Shown piece after piece: positions 29,294-44,781 of a DNA stretch of 47,939 nucleotides. How positions within the stretch are numbered: the stretch's first letter is position 1; every line of letters starts with the position of its first letter. The notes beneath the pieces are model-generated. The model did not search any database, was not told where the DNA came from, and saw only the letters and a list, made by a program, of their open reading frames with translations. The position numbers and the translations under genes were made by a program. This DNA is from Cyanobium sp. E1_MAG_00006 (GTDB lineage Bacteria; Cyanobacteriota; Cyanobacteriia; PCC-6307; Cyanobiaceae), in contig JAIYAQ010000038.1 in assembly GCA_027488975.1 (NCBI GenBank), positions 1 to 47,939 on the forward strand, in the 5' to 3' direction.

Positions 29294-29842
29294 TTACGCT
29301 TTGAACAGCCAACCCTTGAAGCGCCGCGTCAGGAATGGCATCACCAAATAGGTGAGCAGCGCCACCATGATGCCCGTGTTGATCAGGACGCGAAGAACCT
29401 GGGGCCACGAGGCCAGTGCAGCGGCCACAAGCGGACCCAGCAGCAGGGACAGGCCGGCGACGCCAAGCCACACCAACAGAGCCTGTTTGTAACGTTTGGG
29501 AGGTGCGTGAGGCGGTTGCCCGGGCAGCTGGAACCAGCTCTCCAGGCCCGTTAGGACCTTGATGGATTCCGGTTCGCGGATCAACGGCTTCACGCGTTCG
29601 ATCCAGTCGCGTCGGGTCTGCGATTGCATCCAACTGTCGAGTTGCTGGCATGTCTCGAACTGAACCACAATCACGTGATCAGGCGACACACCGAGTTCCG
29701 GACGCAGGATGTGGGCGCCCAGATAGCCGTTGAAGCCCAGAGCATCCGCGGCAATTCCCTTGATCCATTCTTCATAACCCGCTTCTCGGCCTGGGCGAAC
29801 GCGATGGGTGATGACAGCCGTGACGTGAACGCTGGAATCCAT
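29294..29842 (-). CDS. Membrane-anchored ABM-domain protein
   Basis: A 182-residue protein. Residues 1 to about 105 form a ferredoxin-like ABM (antibiotic biosynthesis monooxygenase-like) domain: VTAVITHRVRPGREAGYEEWIKGIAADALGFNGYLGAHILRP, VIVVQFETCQQLDSWMQS, and the solvent-side WFQLPG. The C-terminal part has two transmembrane helices (ALLVWLGVAGLSLLLGPLVAA and VLINTGIMVALLTYLVMPFL) and a basic end. This combination is a known uncharacterised arrangement; whether it is an enzyme or a sensor is open. The ATG at 29842 is clear. A CATAAT -10-like hexamer lies at 29878-29873 on the minus strand, without an evident -35. Confidence 0.78.
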   Translation of the reverse strand: MDSSVHVTAVITHRVRPGREAGYEEWIKGIAADALGFNGYLGAHILRPELGVSPDHVIVVQFETCQQLDSWMQSQTRRDWIERVKPLIREPESIKVLTGLESWFQLPGQPPHAPPKRYKQALLVWLGVAGLSLLLGPLVAAALASWPQVLRVLINTGIMVALLTYLVMPFLTRRFKGWLFKA

Positions 29843-37257: not shown

Positions 37258-38154
37258 GTGGCAACTCCCGTGCTCACGGGCGCCCTGGCGGCGCTGGCGG
37301 CCGCCCTGTGCTGGACCCTGGCCAGCAGCCTCTGGCACCGCCTGCCCACGTCCCTCTCGGCGGTGCAGCTCAACCTGCTCAAGAACCTGCTGGCCCTGGT
37401 CCTGCTGGCACCGGCCCTGGCGCTGCAGCCCTGGCGGGTTGGCTGGGATCCGCTGCTGCTGCTTGCGGCCAGCGGGGTGCTTGGCATCGCCCTCGGCGAC
37501 AGCCTCTACTTCGCCGCCCTGCGCCGGCTCGGCACCCGCCGCTGCCTCACCCTTGATGCCGGGGGGCCCGCCGTGACGGCCGTGGCTGGGTTCCTGTGGC
37601 TGGCGGAATGGCCCAGTCCGCTCCAGTGGCTGGGGGTTGGGCTGATCAGCCTGGCGGTGCTGCTGGTGGCACGACAGAAGCCCGAACGATCCCCGGCTGC
37701 TGGTCTGGCAGTGCCGGCGGCAGCGCAGCGGCTGGGGGTGCTGCTGGCCCTGGGGGCCCTGCTCTGCGGCAGCGGTGGAGCTCTACTGGCGCGGGCGGCC
37801 CTGCGCGCCGGCGAACTCGATCCGCTCCAGTCGGCCGTGTTGCGCCTGGCGGCGGCCAGCCTGGTGCTGCTGCCCCTGCTGCGGGGGGTGCCGGTGTCGC
37901 CTCCCAGGCCACGCCCGGCGCAGCGGCGCTGGCCGCTCTGGCTGGCGGCCACCCTGCTGGGCACCAGTGCCGGCATTGCGCTCCAGCAGACGGCACTGCA
38001 GCACCTGCCGGGGGCCTTGGCTGTGGCCCTGATGGCCACGGCGCCGGTGATGGCGTTACCCCTGGCGCCGTTGGAAGGGGATCGGCCCGGAGTCGTCGGT
38101 GTGCTGGCGGCGCTGCTGGCCCTGGGTGGCGTCAGCTGCGTGGTGGTGGGCTGA
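37258..38154 (+). CDS. EamA/DMT-superfamily transporter
   Basis: A 298-residue protein with ten hydrophobic helices in two EamA repeats. The first repeat starts GALAALAAALCWTLASSLWHRL; the second starts RLGVLLALGALLCGSGGALLARAAL. Helix boundaries carry LGIALGDSLYFAALRRLGTRR and LQQTALQHLPGALAVALMATAPVMALPLA. Such proteins export or import amino acids, nucleosides or other small metabolites; the substrate cannot be told. The start is GTG at 37258, as an upstream ATG is out of frame. It diverges from cpcS by 55 bp and its end overlaps the next minus-strand gene by 23 bp. Confidence 0.85.
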   Translation: MATPVLTGALAALAAALCWTLASSLWHRLPTSLSAVQLNLLKNLLALVLLAPALALQPWRVGWDPLLLLAASGVLGIALGDSLYFAALRRLGTRRCLTLDAGGPAVTAVAGFLWLAEWPSPLQWLGVGLISLAVLLVARQKPERSPAAGLAVPAAAQRLGVLLALGALLCGSGGALLARAALRAGELDPLQSAVLRLAAASLVLLPLLRGVPVSPPRPRPAQRRWPLWLAATLLGTSAGIALQQTALQHLPGALAVALMATAPVMALPLAPLEGDRPGVVGVLAALLALGGVSCVVVG

Positions 38155-38500
38155 GGCCTGCCTCCGCGAGGCGCCGGTCGGCGCTGGCCTTCCCCCAGGC
38201 CACCAGGTCGGCCATGTCCAGGCTCAGGGGGGCTTTGCCCTGCTCCAGGCCGATCTGATCGAGCTGCAGGGCCGCCTTGCTCAGCTGCTCCACCAGCACC
38301 GGAATGAAGGCGGGATCGGCCACCAGGTTTGGCTGCCGCTCCGCCCAGGCAGTGAGGGCGGCCTGATCAGGCCGTTCGGCGGCATCGCCGCTCACCTGCT
38401 GCAGGCAGCGCAGGCTGTGGGCCAGCAGGCGCAGGTGATGCCGCTCCAGCGCGGGCAGCAGGCTGCTCTCCAGTACCTCCAGGTCCTGCTCGCTCAGCAC
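38132..38500 (-). CDS. Helical hypothetical protein coupled to sufR
   Basis: A 122-residue soluble helical protein: VLSEQDLEVLESSLLPALERHHLRLLAHSLRCLQQVSG, LTAWAERQPNLVADPAFIPVLVEQLSKAALQLDQIG, and the tail LDMADLVAWGKASADRRLAEAGL. No cysteine cluster or membrane helix is present. I recognise no family. GTG at 38500 overlaps the last 7 bp of sufR, pointing to coupled translation and a possible role near SufR or iron-sulfur assembly; that role is inference only. Confidence 0.65.
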   Translation of the reverse strand: MLSEQDLEVLESSLLPALERHHLRLLAHSLRCLQQVSGDAAERPDQAALTAWAERQPNLVADPAFIPVLVEQLSKAALQLDQIGLEQGKAPLSLDMADLVAWGKASADRRLAEAGLSPPPRS

Positions 38501-39150
38501 GCGCTGGCTGAGCTCTCGGGCAGCTGCAGGCGGAAGCCGCAGGCGTGACCACCCTCCAGAAGCCAGTGGACGCGCTCCACCTCGCAATCTGGGAAGGTGT
38601 GGCGGATCAGCTGCAGCTCCTGATCACAGATGCAGGGGAACTGCTCGGCGATCTTCATCACCGAGCAGTGGAACTCACTCATCACCCAGCCGTGCCCCTC
38701 GGGATCGGGACGCAGTTCGGCCACAAAGCCCTCGCTGCGGCGCAGCTCCACCAGCCGTTCGAGGCGGGCACGGAGAGGTCCGGCGCCGATGCTTCGGCGG
38801 TAGTCCGCCGCTTTCTCGGCCGCCTGGCGCTGCAGCAGGTCCGCCACCATGTCGGGCGGGAGGCTGGCGGCCATGGAATTGAGCAATCCCAGAGCGAAAT
38901 CGTCGCTGCCGTCGGGGAAGTGACCACGACCGGCGGTGGTCAGCCGCCAGCGGTTGCTCGGCCGGCCGGGGCCTTCGCTGGCCGGGCTGGCCTCCACCAG
39001 GCCCTCCTCCTCGAGGGAACGGAGATGGCGCCGCATCGCCTGCACGGAAACGGCCAGTTCCTCGGCGAGCTCGGCCGCAGTGATCTCTCCCTGGCGCAGC
39101 ATCAGGGTCAGGGCGGCTTCGCGCGTCGGTGCCTGGGTGGAGGCGCTCAT
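38494..39150 (-). CDS. sufR: SufR, iron-sulfur repressor of the suf genes
   Basis: A 218-residue DeoR/ArsR-like regulator. A winged helix-turn-helix lies at about residues 21-70 (EITAAELAEELAVSVQAMRRHLRSLEEEGLVEASP). Candidate Fe-S ligands are Cys162, Cys173, Cys175, Cys189 and Cys204, in SEFHCSVMK, EQFPCICDQ, FPDCEVE and GHACGF. In cyanobacteria SufR binds 4Fe-4S clusters and represses sufBCDS and itself; loss of the cluster relieves repression. The ATG at 39150 opens the conserved part; a longer frame upstream lacks similarity. It is divergent from the ftrC-suf genes, the usual arrangement. Confidence 0.93.
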   Translation of the reverse strand: MSASTQAPTREAALTLMLRQGEITAAELAEELAVSVQAMRRHLRSLEEEGLVEASPASEGPGRPSNRWRLTTAGRGHFPDGSDDFALGLLNSMAASLPPDMVADLLQRQAAEKAADYRRSIGAGPLRARLERLVELRRSEGFVAELRPDPEGHGWVMSEFHCSVMKIAEQFPCICDQELQLIRHTFPDCEVERVHWLLEGGHACGFRLQLPESSASAC

Positions 39151-39498
39151 GACCAGGGGAACGTGCTCACACCATGCCACGCAGACTTGATAACTGGCGA
39201 ACCGACCCATCGCAGGTGCTGGTTCTGCTACACGATCTGCGGGGCAGGGGCGAGTCGCGGGCCACAATGGGCCTTCACCCCGGCCGGCCTGCGCGTGCCT
39301 TAGGGTCGACTTGCGAAACCACTGTGTTTCGTAACTGGGTTCAACGGCGACCCGTTCGCCGCCTATCCCGATCCGGCTTGGAGCTGTCCCACTCTCTCAG
39401 TTCCCACCGCATCGTTCTCGCTGCACCGTTTCGGCTGCACCGTCCCAGCTGCATCGCCACTTCTTTCACCCGCCGCTGCCTCTCCTCGACCCTGCGCC
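39151..39498. other. 348-bp control region between sufR and ftrC-suf
   Basis: No convincing gene is present; the 110-codon plus-strand frame here is Arg/Ser-rich and unlike a real protein. The notable element is the inverted repeat at 39311-39334 (separate entry). The 165 bp from that repeat to the ftrC ATG form a long C/T-rich leader (for example CTCTCTCAGTTCCCACC and TCTCCTCGACCC) with little purine content. I found no hexamer pair good enough to call a promoter on either strand. Confidence 0.5.
39311..39334. promoter_or_regulatory. Candidate SufR operator
   Basis: TTGCGAAAC, six bases (CACTGT), GTTTCGTAA: a nine-base inverted repeat with one mismatch. The core AAAC-N6-GTTT has the same spacing as the published cyanobacterial SufR core CAAC-N6-GTTG. 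It lies 160 bp from the sufR start and 165 bp from the ftrC start, well placed to act on both. Confidence 0.6.
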
Positions 39499-39867
39499 AT
39501 GTCTGACGCCCCCAGTTCTGACGCCCCCAGCACCCCAGCCAGCGACAGCCTCGAGGTGATCCGTAAGTTCGCCGAGACCTACGCCCAGCGCACCGGTACC
39601 TATTTCTGTAGTGATCCCGGCGTGACCGCCGTGGTGCTCGAGGGTCTGGCCCGTCATAAGGACGAGCTGGGAGGTGCCCTCTGCCCATGCCGCCACTACG
39701 AGGACAAGCAGGCCGAGGTGGCCCAGGCCTTCTGGAACTGCCCCTGCGTGCCGATGCGCGAGCGCAAGGAGTGTCACTGCATGCTGTTCCTCACGGAGGA
39801 CAACCCCTTCCGCGGCGAGTCGCAGACCATCAGCCTCGACGACCTCAAAGCCCTCACCGCCGGCTGA
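39499..39867 (+). CDS. ftrC: Ferredoxin:thioredoxin reductase catalytic chain
   Basis: A 122-residue protein with the complete FTR-beta signature CPC-x16-CPC-x8-CHC: Cys62 and Cys64 in [11 protein letters not shown], Cys81 and Cys83 in NCPCVP, Cys92 and Cys94 in ECHCM. Four of these hold a 4Fe-4S cluster and two form the redox-active disulfide that receives electrons from ferredoxin and reduces thioredoxin. The first 17 residues are Ser/Pro/Ala-rich and may be disordered. It lies 20 bp before sufB on the same strand and is the first gene behind the SufR control region, suggesting joint control of this Fe-S enzyme with Fe-S assembly. Confidence 0.95.
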
Positions 39868-39887
39868 ACCGCCGGCTGATCCCTCCC

Positions 39888-41330
39888 ATGAGCAGCGCAC
39901 AGGCCGTTGGCGATCTGGTGAGTCAGCCGTACAAGTACGGCTTCGTCACCGACATCGAAACCGAGAAGATCGCCAAGGGCCTCAGTGAGGACGTTGTGCG
40001 GCTGATCTCCAGCAAGAAGCAGGAGCCGGACTTCCTGTTGGACTTCCGCCTGCGGGCCTATCGCCAGTGGCTGCAGATGCAGGAGCCCGACTGGGCCAGC
40101 CTCGGCTACCCGCCGATCGACTACCAGAACATCATCTATTACGCCGCACCGAAGCAGCAGGCCAAGAAGGCCAGCCTCGATGAGGTGGATCCCAAGCTGC
40201 TCGAAACCTTCGACAAGCTCGGGATTCCCCTGAGCGAACAGAAGCGTCTCTCCAACGTGGCTGTTGATGCGGTGTTCGACAGCGTCTCGATCGCCACCAC
40301 CTACAAGGAGAAGCTGGCCGAGCATGGCGTGATCTTCTGCTCGATCAGCGAGGCGGTGAAGGAGCATCCCGAGCTGATTGAGCGTTACCTGGGCACCGTG
40401 GTGGCCAGCAACGACAACTATTTCGCGGCCCTCAACTCGGCCGTGTTCAGCGACGGCTCCTTCGTGTTCATCCCGAAAGGTGTGGACTGCCCGATGGAGC
40501 TCTCCACTTACTTCCGCATCAACTCCGGCGACACGGGTCAGTTCGAGCGCACCCTGATCGTGGCCGAGGAGGGTGCTTCCGTCAGCTACCTCGAGGGTTG
40601 CACGGCGCCGATGTTCGATACCAACCAGCTGCACGCCGCCGTGGTGGAGCTGGTGGCGCTGGATGACGCCTCGATCAAGTACTCAACCGTGCAGAACTGG
40701 TACGCCGGTGATGAGAACGGTGTGGGCGGCATCTACAACTTCGTCACCAAGCGTGGCCACTGCCGCGGCGATCGCAGCCACATCAGCTGGACCCAGGTGG
40801 AAACCGGTTCGGCGATCACCTGGAAGTACCCCAGCTGTGTGCTGCAGGGGGCTGATTCCGTGGGCGAGTTTTACTCCGTGGCCCTCACCAACAACTGCCA
40901 GCAGGCGGATACCGGCACCAAGATGATTCATGTGGGGCCCCGCAGTCGCTCCACGATCGTGAGCAAGGGCATCAGCGCCGGTCGCTCCTCCAATAGCTAT
41001 CGCGGCCTGGTGCAGATCGGTCCGAAAGCGGTGGGTGCCCGCAACTACAGCCAGTGCGATTCGATGTTGATCGGTGATCGCGCCGCTGCCAACACCTACC
41101 CCTACATCCGCTCGCAGCAGCCCCAGTCGGCCGTTGAGCACGAGGCCAGCACCTGCCGCATCTCCGAAGACCAGCTCTTCTACCTGCAGAGCCGTGGCAT
41201 CGGCCTGGAGGAAGCCGTCTCGATGATGGTGAGTGGCTTCTGCCGCGATGTGTTCAACCAGCTGCCGATGGAGTTCGCCGCCGAGGCGGACAAACTGCTG
41301 GCCCTCAAACTCGAGGGTTCGGTGGGCTGA
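39888..41330 (+). CDS. sufB: SufB, Fe-S scaffold subunit
   Basis: A 480-residue protein, typical SufB length. It starts [40 protein letters not shown]. The beta-helix core follows, with [60 protein letters not shown] and [12 protein letters not shown]. The C-terminal [38 protein letters not shown] is the signature shared with SufD. With SufC and SufD it builds and passes on 4Fe-4S clusters in the cytosol. The ATG at 39888 is chosen because upstream in-frame residues are the ftrC shadow. Confidence 0.97.
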
Positions 41331-41405: not shown

Positions 41406-42220
<815 letters not shown>

Positions 42221-42221
<1 letters not shown>

Positions 42222-43498
42222 TGACCGCCAGCCTCAGCGCTCCCGGCAGCAGCGTCATGGGTCGTTCCGCCTGGCTTGAGCCCTGGCTGGCGACACTCCC
42301 CGCTCCCTCCGGTCCCCTGGAGGCGGTGCAGGTGCGCGGACGACGCGCCCTGCGCGAGCAACCGGTGCCCTCCTCGCGCCAGGAGGACTGGCGCTTCACC
42401 GATCTTTCCCTGCTGCAGCAGCTGCAGCAGGCGCCTGGGGCCGGTGATGCTGCCGCCGCGGCGTCCGCCGCCGCACTGCCCCCGCCTGCTCCCGGCGCGT
42501 TTCGCCTGGTGCTGGATGGCCGCAGTGATCCCCTCGACGGGGTGACCCTGCCCGAGGGCTTGCAGGCCCTCAACCCCTTGGAGATCGGCCAGGGCCTCGG
42601 CCACACCCTGGCGGCCACCGGCTGCGAGCAGCACTGGCCCGTGGAGCTGAACCACGCTGCCGCCGGCACGTTGCTGGCCCTGCGGGTCACCGCCCGCCAC
42701 AGCGTCCGCCTGGAACTGGTGAGTGCCGCTGGCGCCGGCCTGCTGCCGCTACGGCTGCTGCTGGTGCTTGAGGAGAAGGCCGCGCTGGAGGTGAACCAGC
42801 TGCTGCTGGCCCCAGGCCCCGGCTCCATCAGCCTGGTGCTTGAGGCCCATCTCGCCCGCAGCGCTCGGCTGCACCACGGTCTGGTGGCCCTGGGCCATCC
42901 CGAGGCGGCCCTGCTGGGCCATCTGGCCCTGGAACAGGAGCCGGAGAGCAGTGCCAACCTCACGGCGGTGAGTGCCGGCTGGGGCCTGGCGCGCCTCGAG
43001 CCGCGCGTGCTGCAGGTGGATGGCCAGGCCGTCACCACCCTGCGGGGGCTGCAGGTGGTGGATGGCCGCCAGATCGCTGACACCCACAGCCATGTGCGCT
43101 TCAACGGTCCGGAGGGGCAGCTCGATCAGCTGCACAAGGTGGTGGCAGCCGGCCAGGGCCGCAGCGTGTTCAACGGCGCCGTGCGCGTGCCCCGCGAAGC
43201 CCAGCGCACCAACGCCGCCCAGCTCAGCCGCAGCCTGCTGCTCTCCGATCGGGCCCGCATCGATACCAAGCCCGAGCTGGAGATCGTCGCCGACGACGTG
43301 AAGTGCGCCCACGGCGCCACCGTGAGCTCCCTGCAGACCGACGAACTCTTCTATTTGCAGAGCCGCGGCATCGGTGCCGATCAGGCCGCTCAGCTGCTGC
43401 AGCGTGCCTTCTGTGAGGAGGTGCTGCGGGAGCTGCCGGCTGTGGCCAGGGCCTGGTGCCCGCTTGAGGCCCTGCAGCGGCAGGACGGCTTGGCATGA
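42221..43498 (+). CDS. sufD: SufD, Fe-S assembly subunit
   Basis: A 425-residue SufBD-family protein. The N-terminal helical domain includes ALREQPVPSSRQEDWRFTDLSLLQQL. The beta-helix follows, with HSHVRFNGPEGQLDQLHKVVAAGQGRSVFNGAVRVPREAQRTNAAQLSRSLLLSDRARIDTKPELEIVADDVKCAHGATV. The end [34 protein letters not shown] is the conserved SufBD tail. It pairs with SufB. It starts on the last base of the sufC stop and ends in an ATGA overlap with sufS. Confidence 0.96.
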
Positions 43499-44781
43499 CC
43501 AGCACCCTTCCGGCACCGGCCGCAGCCGGCACCCATTCCGAGAATCTGGCCGCCCTCACCCGGCCCGATTTCCCGCTGCTGGCGCAGACGGCCTGCCTCG
43601 GCCAGCCGCTGATCTACCTCGATCACGCCGCCACCAGCCAGAAGCCCCGCCAAGTGCTGGCGGCTCTGCAGCACTACTACGACCACGACAACGCCAACGT
43701 GCACCGCGGCGCTCACCAGCTGAGCGCCCGTGCCACTGAAGGCTTCGAGGGTGCCCGTGCCAAGACGGCCACCTTCATCGGGGCCGCGAGCCCCAACGAG
43801 ATCGTGTTCACCCGCAACGCCAGTGAGGCGATCAACCTGGTGGCCCGCAGCTGGGGCGAGGCCAACCTGCGCCCCGGCGATGAGGTGCTGCTCACGGTGA
43901 TGGAGCACCACAGCAACCTGGTGCCCTGGCAGCTGCTGGCCGACCGCACCGGCTGCGTGCTGCGCCATGCCGGCCTCACGACCAGCGGCGAACTGGATCT
44001 CGAAGACCTGCGCGGCAAGCTCAGCGAGCGCACCCGTCTGGTGAGCCTGGTGCAGGTGAGCAACACCCTCGGCTGCCTCAACCCGATCGCCGAGGTGGCG
44101 GCCCTCGCCCACGCCGCCGGTGCACTCCTGCTGGTGGATGCCTGCCAGAGCCTGCCGCACCTGCCCCTGGACGTGAAGACCCTCGGGGCCGACTTCCTGG
44201 TGGGCAGCTCCCACAAGCTCTGCGGCCCCACCGGCATGGGCTTCCTCTGGGGGCGCGAGGCGCTGCTGGAGGCGATGCCGCCCTTCCTCGGTGGTGGCGA
44301 GATGATTCAGGATGTGTACCTGGACCACAGCAGCTGGGCCGGCCTGCCGCACAAGTTCGAGGCCGGTACCCCCGCCATCGGCGAGGCGATCGGTATGGGC
44401 GCCGCCCTCGACTATCTGCAGGCCATCGGCCTGGGGCGCATCCATTCCTGGGAGCAGCAGCTCACCCGCCAGCTGTTTGATCGCCTGCAGGCGATCGACC
44501 GCCTGACGATCCTTGGCCCCACCCCGGAGCAGCAGCCCGACCGCGGCGCCCTGGCCGCGTTCCACCTGGAGGGCGTTCACGCCAACGACATCGCCGCCCT
44601 GCTGGATTCCTCCGGGATCTGCATCCGCAGCGGCCACCACTGCACCCAACCGCTGCATCGCCACTACGGCCTCAGCGGTTCGGCCCGCGCCAGCCTCAGC
44701 TTCACCACCACCCCCGAGGAGATCGATCGCTTCGCCGAAGAGTTGGCGGGCGCCATCAGCTTCCTGCGCGAGCACAGCTGA
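43495..44781 (+). CDS. sufS: SufS cysteine desulfurase
   Basis: A 428-residue PLP enzyme of the group II desulfurases. IYLDHAATSQKPRQVL is the N-terminal signature, HRGAHQLSARATEGFEGAR follows, and the PLP lysine is Lys241 in GSSHKLCGPTGMGFLWG. The catalytic cysteine is Cys383 in IRSGHHCTQPLHRHYG. It takes sulfur from cysteine for cluster assembly. A SufE partner is not in this window. The ATG overlaps the sufD stop as ATGA. It is the last gene of the plus-strand suf set; the next gene converges 7 bp away with no terminator. Confidence 0.97.
   Translation: MTSTLPAPAAAGTHSENLAALTRPDFPLLAQTACLGQPLIYLDHAATSQKPRQVLAALQHYYDHDNANVHRGAHQLSARATEGFEGARAKTATFIGAASPNEIVFTRNASEAINLVARSWGEANLRPGDEVLLTVMEHHSNLVPWQLLADRTGCVLRHAGLTTSGELDLEDLRGKLSERTRLVSLVQVSNTLGCLNPIAEVAALAHAAGALLLVDACQSLPHLPLDVKTLGADFLVGSSHKLCGPTGMGFLWGREALLEAMPPFLGGGEMIQDVYLDHSSWAGLPHKFEAGTPAIGEAIGMGAALDYLQAIGLGRIHSWEQQLTRQLFDRLQAIDRLTILGPTPEQQPDRGALAAFHLEGVHANDIAALLDSSGICIRSGHHCTQPLHRHYGLSGSARASLSFTTTPEEIDRFAEELAGAISFLREHS

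Follow-up and report, generated by a model that had tools for sequence, protein, structure and literature searches.

A putative lineage-specific SufR operator in front of the ftrC-sufBCDS genes of picocyanobacteria, with a sigma-factor gene as a probable second target

Introduction

SufR has been described as a repressor of sufBCDS and of its own gene (PMC7058544), and CAAC-N6-GTTG has been reported as the operator in a mixed group of cyanobacteria, CC9311 and MIT 9303 among them (PMC4755962). A 2009 screen recorded the insertion of ftrC, the gene for the catalytic subunit of ferredoxin:thioredoxin reductase (FTR), ahead of sufB in Synechococcus PCC 6301, and predicted, between sufR and sufB, a pair of stem-loops separated by 17 nt, which it called an RNA element (PMC2662882). 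According to a 2026 review ftrC is commonly found near sufBCDS, and in PCC 7942 it is co-transcribed with suf and has SufR listed as a regulator (PMC13421787). FTR is reported to be missing from Prochlorococcus and Gloeobacter (PMC9025218). A preliminary description of the DNA studied here had noted ftrC at the head of the suf genes and proposed its control by SufR. Since both the ftrC-suf insertion and the regulation by SufR are in print (PMC2662882, PMC13421787), that finding, as it was worded, is correct and already known.

The locus lies in a 47,939-nucleotide stretch of Cyanobium sp. E1_MAG_00006 (contig JAIYAQ010000038.1), here called the window. It shares with the SufR-sufBCDS locus of Synechocystis PCC 6803 the divergent sufR, the repressor family, the conserved C-terminal cysteines, the suf gene order, and operator half-sites that end in AAC and flank a 6-bp spacer. 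It differs in the insertion of ftrC before sufB, in the operator arms (ACGAAAC instead of AACAAC), in the recognition helix (SVQ..MRRHLRS instead of SPQA.RRHLKD) and in the number of operators, which is one here and two or more in 31 of 45 suf gaps from outside the picocyanobacterial family. S. elongatus PCC 6301/7942 also has ftrC as the first gene of the operon, with SufR implicated (PMC2662882, PMC13421787), but the operator class is different, as a putative S. elongatus locus (L082) carries two copies of CAAC-N6-GTTG. What the present sequence comparisons appear to add to this picture is a lineage-specific SufR operator, matching changes in the SufR helix, and a probable sigma-factor target.

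Results and Discussion

Organization and distribution of the sufR-ftrC-sufBCDS genes

The features of the region are listed below, with positions counted from the start of the window.

38494-39150, minus strand: sufR, 218 amino acids, Fe-S-sensing winged-helix repressor (TIGR02702 SufR_cyano, 211.5 bits, cut-off 178.8)
39301-39306, plus strand: -10-like hexamer TAGGGT of the candidate ftrC-suf promoter, recognized by conservation among loci
39312-39333, either strand: putative SufR operator TGCGAAAC-N6-GTTTCGTA, a single copy detected by inverted-repeat search, over the expected transcription start
39499-39867, plus strand: ftrC, 122 amino acids, FTR catalytic subunit (PF02943, FeThRed_B, 144 bits)
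39868-39887, plus strand: ftrC-sufB spacer, 20 bp, no promoter or terminator match
39888-41330, plus strand: sufB (PRK11814, 888 bits)
41406-42221, plus strand: sufC (TIGR01978, 360 bits), start codon predicted
42221-43498, plus strand: sufD (TIGR01981, 210.6 bits, slightly below the cut-off of 222; PF01458, 198.7 bits)
43495-44781, plus strand: sufS (TIGR01979, 530.8 bits)

Coordinates and profile matches confirm that ftrC heads the suf genes behind a divergent sufR, from which it is separated by 348 bp, and that it ends 20 bp before sufB, a spacing that follows from the sufB start at 39888. The interval singled out in the preliminary description, 39301-39890, runs from the -10-like TAGGGT through the sufB start codon. 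The contiguous sufB, sufC, sufD and sufS are arranged as in a suf operon, and the PF02943 family score together with a partner FtrV encoded in the genome identifies ftrC as the gene for the FTR catalytic subunit; it is the sole FtrC match across the genome. A consensus scan of positions 38100-40200 returned no sigma-70 promoter, and the call of the -10 hexamer consequently rests on conservation. The same scan placed no terminator-like site in the ftrC-sufB spacer; the only one in the scanned segment falls within sufB on the minus strand (40037-40020), with 0.6 expected by chance. A separate promoter or terminator between ftrC and sufB was thus matched nowhere, in agreement with what had been proposed. 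The 75 bp between sufB and the start of sufC make a single transcript reaching sufS less certain.

The gene order was surveyed in 81 loci, consisting of our own and the best 80 of 544 FtrC relatives. SufR, FtrC and SufB occur in the same order in 79 of them, the exceptions being L057, which lacks a SufB match, and L080, which lacks a SufR match; the arrangement is therefore not due to chance. One of the loci with this picocyanobacterial order, L047, is titled Bifidobacterium breve and is probably a mislabelled metagenome bin. In a sample of 116 genomes of the phylum, FtrC was found in 53, of which 50 belong to the class of the present organism, and coordinates showed ftrC adjoining sufB in 11 of these 50 genomes (8 of 21 families). 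This survey of the position of ftrC had been suggested in the preliminary description.

Among 71 genomes of the picocyanobacterial family, SufR was found in 58 (52 of the 58 matches exceed the TIGR02702 cut-off), FtrV in 46 and FtrC in 45. All 45 genomes with FtrC also have SufR, with ftrC divergent from sufR on the same contig. SufR occurs without FtrC in 13 genomes, both are missing from another 13, and FtrC never occurs without SufR. This nested pattern fits an order of events in which ftrC was lost first and sufR later. FtrV accompanies FtrC in 45 of 45 genomes and is present in one genome that lacks it. G140 has SufR and FtrV with no FtrC match, possibly because of an assembly gap, and G027 has two copies of ftrC, of which one belongs to the suf cluster and the other, at a separate place, has no SufR site.

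The palindrome in front of ftrC

A SufR-type control region had been expected between sufR and ftrC. This expectation held in that a conserved palindrome precedes ftrC, but the known operator is absent and a lineage-specific sequence occupies its place. CAAC-N6-GTTG has no match in positions 39151-39498, even with one mismatch, and it was rejected as the operator of this locus, its only two exact matches in the window being at 40253, inside sufB, and at the distant position 29631. The pattern GAAAC-N6-GTTTC, with up to one mismatch, is found in the window only at 39312-39333.

The exact form CGAAAC-N6-GTTTCG is present in 66 of 79 named loci. For the matrix, 77 of these 79 were used, L036 and L046 being left out as misfits to the search pattern. 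With this matrix the site at 39312-39333 scores 28 bits, and the best score elsewhere in the window is below 0. All 81 suf loci scanned, 77 of which had served to build the matrix, score at least 19.6 bits in front of ftrC, and past the ftrC start no score exceeds 11.9 bits (79 loci). The exact suf site is missing from 21 SufR-bearing family genomes, and the suf gap was scored in six of them; these six gaps, which lack the exact form and lie outside the matrix set, reach 19.6-28.0 bits. In an alignment of 78 loci, conservation above 80% is confined to the palindrome arms, to individual positions at -1, 18, 20 and 22, and to a C at -37; no such column lies closer to ftrC, and the six central bases vary freely.

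A TANNNT hexamer oriented toward ftrC begins 16 to 9 bases ahead of the palindrome core in 76 of 79 loci; two control windows gave 0 of 79 each. The -16 to -9 window was set after inspection of the aligned flanks. The transcription start expected from TAGGGT would fall inside the palindrome, where repressors classically bind.

The palindrome is also tied to SufR by its distribution. Exact copies occur in 43 of 58 SufR-bearing family genomes versus 0 of 13 without SufR (Fisher 6e-7, uncorrected for kinship); the suf upstream region was scanned in two of these 13 (L135 and L136). The loci L137, L138, L186 and L187 did not enter the analysis, except that L142 and L143, which overlap them, were scanned with the matrix. 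Together with the conserved -10-like hexamer and palindrome before ftrC, the confinement of the exact site to SufR-bearing genomes supports the proposed control of ftrC by SufR along with suf.

The broader idea that light-driven thioredoxin reduction is tied to Fe-S status found support for the catalytic subunit gene ftrC only: ftrV is located elsewhere, and the 30 of 46 ftrV loci scanned with the operator matrix reach a maximum of 13.5 bits. Within FTR, the tie to SufR would thus be limited to the catalytic subunit.

Operators and SufR proteins inside and outside the family

CAAC-N6-GTTG is present in 44 of 45 suf gaps from outside the family, and where it is repeated the copies are spaced 38-47 bp apart. 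The new matrix reaches at most 3.7 bits on 53 non-family suf loci, and motif searches that use the published operator would miss the picocyanobacterial family. Upstream regions of solo ftrC genes in other cyanobacteria contained CAAC-N6-GTTG in 0 of 40 cases, and the new matrix gave them at most 1.5 bits. Cyanobacteria thus have no general need to place ftrC under SufR, and ftrC seems to come under SufR solely through its position in the operon.

Four cysteines of SufR, at residues 162, 175, 189 and 204, have a conserved fraction of 1.0 among 79 aligned SufR sequences; they are candidate cluster-binding residues, of the kind named C164, C171 and C206 in the PCC 6803 protein. The compared helix, presumably the one that reads DNA as judged from helix-turn-helix profile matches, is different inside and outside the family. 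At residue 36, 80 of 80 named and 36 of 36 family loci, two sets that may overlap in species, have V, and 49 of 49 non-family loci have P, T or L; residue 44 is R in the family versus K or N outside, and residue 45 is S, G, T, A, C or N versus D or E. SufR of the picocyanobacterial family seems to have kept its architecture and changed its operator along with the recognition helix. If true, this paired change would offer a clear natural example of repressor-operator co-evolution.

A sigma-factor gene as a probable second target

The exact sequence CGAAAC-N6-GTTTCG occurs 57 times in the 71 family genomes. Twenty-eight of these sites are next to suf genes with ftrC, 9 next to suf genes without ftrC, 16 next to a sigma-factor gene and 4 elsewhere, so that suf or the sigma gene accounts for 53 of the 57. 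The present genome is among those with a site at the sigma gene, an operator with perfect 8-bp arms (G000:C6:766-787, L184) located between the genes for the sigma factor and an RsuA/RluB-type pseudouridine synthase. The sigma factor belongs to the RpoD/SigA family TIGR02997: a full-length relative (L260) scores 426.9 versus a cut-off of 384.5, and our copy, cut by the contig end, scores 361.9.

The synthase gene is the usual divergent neighbour of the sigma gene and served as an internal control. Loci were collected from 64 of the 71 family genomes; 52 were scored, and 12 that had no sigma or RsuA match were left out. The 31 scored loci that include the sigma gene all contain a site (18.0-34.7 bits), and all 21 without the sigma gene score below 0, the maximum of 156 shuffles being 5.7 bits. 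Where the sigma gene is farther from the synthase gene, the site accompanies the sigma gene (L218, L232, L234, L313-L315). The weakest sites at sigma genes (18.0-19.8 bits) have altered cores.

The sigma factor was searched for in 41 genomes, and loci were taken from 30 of the matches. Among the SufR-bearing genomes, 37 of 58 have an operator of at least 18 bits at the sigma gene, 14 have none at the best sigma match and 7 are undecided; it was found in 0 of 12 SufR-less genomes examined. The sigma branch is therefore not universal, given the 14 SufR-bearing genomes that lack it. In 30 of 32 loci a TANNNT starts at -8 or -7 from the site; this offset was recognized in hindsight, and the hexamer shares some bases with the site's conserved flank. 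The -16 to -9 window used for suf gives 0 of 32. A tree of the sigma proteins was built from 55 rows, with matches of fewer than 110 residues dropped and one G158 gene entered twice. Its operator-bearing (29) and operator-free (26) copies do not form two clean clades.

Among the titles listed by literature searches on SufR, sigma factors and picocyanobacteria, none reports a link between SufR and a sigma factor; a regulon database may already contain the variant operator or the sigma target. The closest parallel is the control of type II sigma factors by RpaB/RpaA in PCC 7942, where a redox-linked regulator also acts on sigma factors (PMC13421787); the difference is that the candidate regulator here is the Fe-S sensor SufR.

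Interpretation and alternatives

The gene order, the conserved sites and their placement, the co-occurrence with SufR and the helix residues were observed directly, and from them we infer SufR binding, operon transcription, the direction of the response and the sigma branch; the chemistry of SufR and its repressing action are taken by analogy from literature on other species. We consider it probable that ftrC-sufBCDS is one SufR-controlled operon with a lineage-specific operator, and that SufR controls the sigma factor too in most SufR-bearing genomes. Transcription of ftrC and sufBCDS would start from the promoter with the -10 hexamer at 39301-39306, and SufR holding its [4Fe-4S] cluster would bind the palindrome at 39312-39333 over the expected start and block transcription. 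Loss or reduction of the cluster, under iron limitation, oxidants or an over-reduced acceptor side of photosystem I, would release SufR, and FtrC would then be made alongside the SUF machinery that supplies its 4Fe-4S cluster. SufR of the picocyanobacterial family would read CGAAAC-N6-GTTTCG in place of CAAC-N6-GTTG, and the identical operator right after a -10 hexamer would place the RpoD/SigA-family sigma factor under SufR, in the present genome as well.

Ownership of the palindrome by another redox or iron regulator that co-occurs with SufR seems unlikely. The palindrome does mismatch CAAC-N6-GTTG and also marks the sigma gene, and a repressor lost jointly with SufR could own it; but it stands where other cyanobacteria have the SufR operator, retains AAC-N6-GTT as its core and has no exact copy in any of the 13 family genomes without SufR, and it is in this clade that the recognition helix of SufR is different. 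We find it slightly harder still to believe that ftrC is a mere neighbour, with a SufR-independent promoter in the 165 bp past the palindrome and SufR acting on suf or on sufR alone. The stretch in question (39334-39498) is long, and the palindrome lies at differing distances from ftrC in the loci compared, with a median of 61 bp. Against this, the stretch contains no promoter match, and the alignment shows no column conserved above 80% between the immediate flank of the palindrome and ftrC. Moreover, the site is near ftrC and not near sufR in WH7803 (L074), despite an ORF between the two genes, and likewise in other loci with sufR-ftrC gaps above 1,200 bp.

A role of the palindrome as a leader RNA hairpin is very improbable. 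Such a reading could appeal to the two stem-loops predicted in the sufR-sufB gap of other species (PMC2662882), yet the six central bases are unconserved, few flanking bases are conserved, and the stem-loop pair matches the two CAAC-N6-GTTG operators found 38-47 bp apart elsewhere in cyanobacteria. This spacing suggests that the element of PMC2662882 is itself a CAAC-N6-GTTG operator pair.

We also lean toward a wider version of SufR control, in which picocyanobacterial SufR directly represses an RpoD/SigA-family sigma factor together with ftrC-sufBCDS, so that Fe-S status resets promoter choice genome-wide; this regulation would have come with the switch in SufR specificity, and both would have been lost in streamlined lineages that dropped ftrC and then sufR. 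Picocyanobacteria carry much of the ocean's photosynthesis and are often iron-limited. If SufR drives their sigma factor, Fe-S status would be a global transcription input, beyond feedback on cluster assembly.

Other occurrences of the palindrome

A degenerate scan of the genome that allowed two mismatches was uninformative, with 39 sites compared to 55 for the reversed pattern, and only exact sites and matrix scores were therefore used. Across the 71 family genomes the reversed control pattern was counted 27 times, which puts the four stray exact sites within chance; a pattern with seven-base arms gave 42 sites versus 0 for its control. The third exact site of the present genome (L185:3080-3101, contig C9) scores 28.4 bits and lies 98 bp before an ammonium transporter gene. 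It is regarded as no more than a possible SufR target, as the three genomes of the same genus have exact sites only at suf and sigma. The ORF between sufR and ftrC in WH7803 (L074:2716-3789) resembles, by eye, a class I fructose-bisphosphate aldolase, and similarly long sufR-ftrC gaps are present in L050, L054, L055, L062 and L079. A stray site of 23.6 bits (L240:1499-1520, G136) is located among ORFs without assigned identity. Exact palindromes around position 1500 of L229 and L239 fall inside an ORF that by eye is ftsZ-like, and are probably a coding coincidence.
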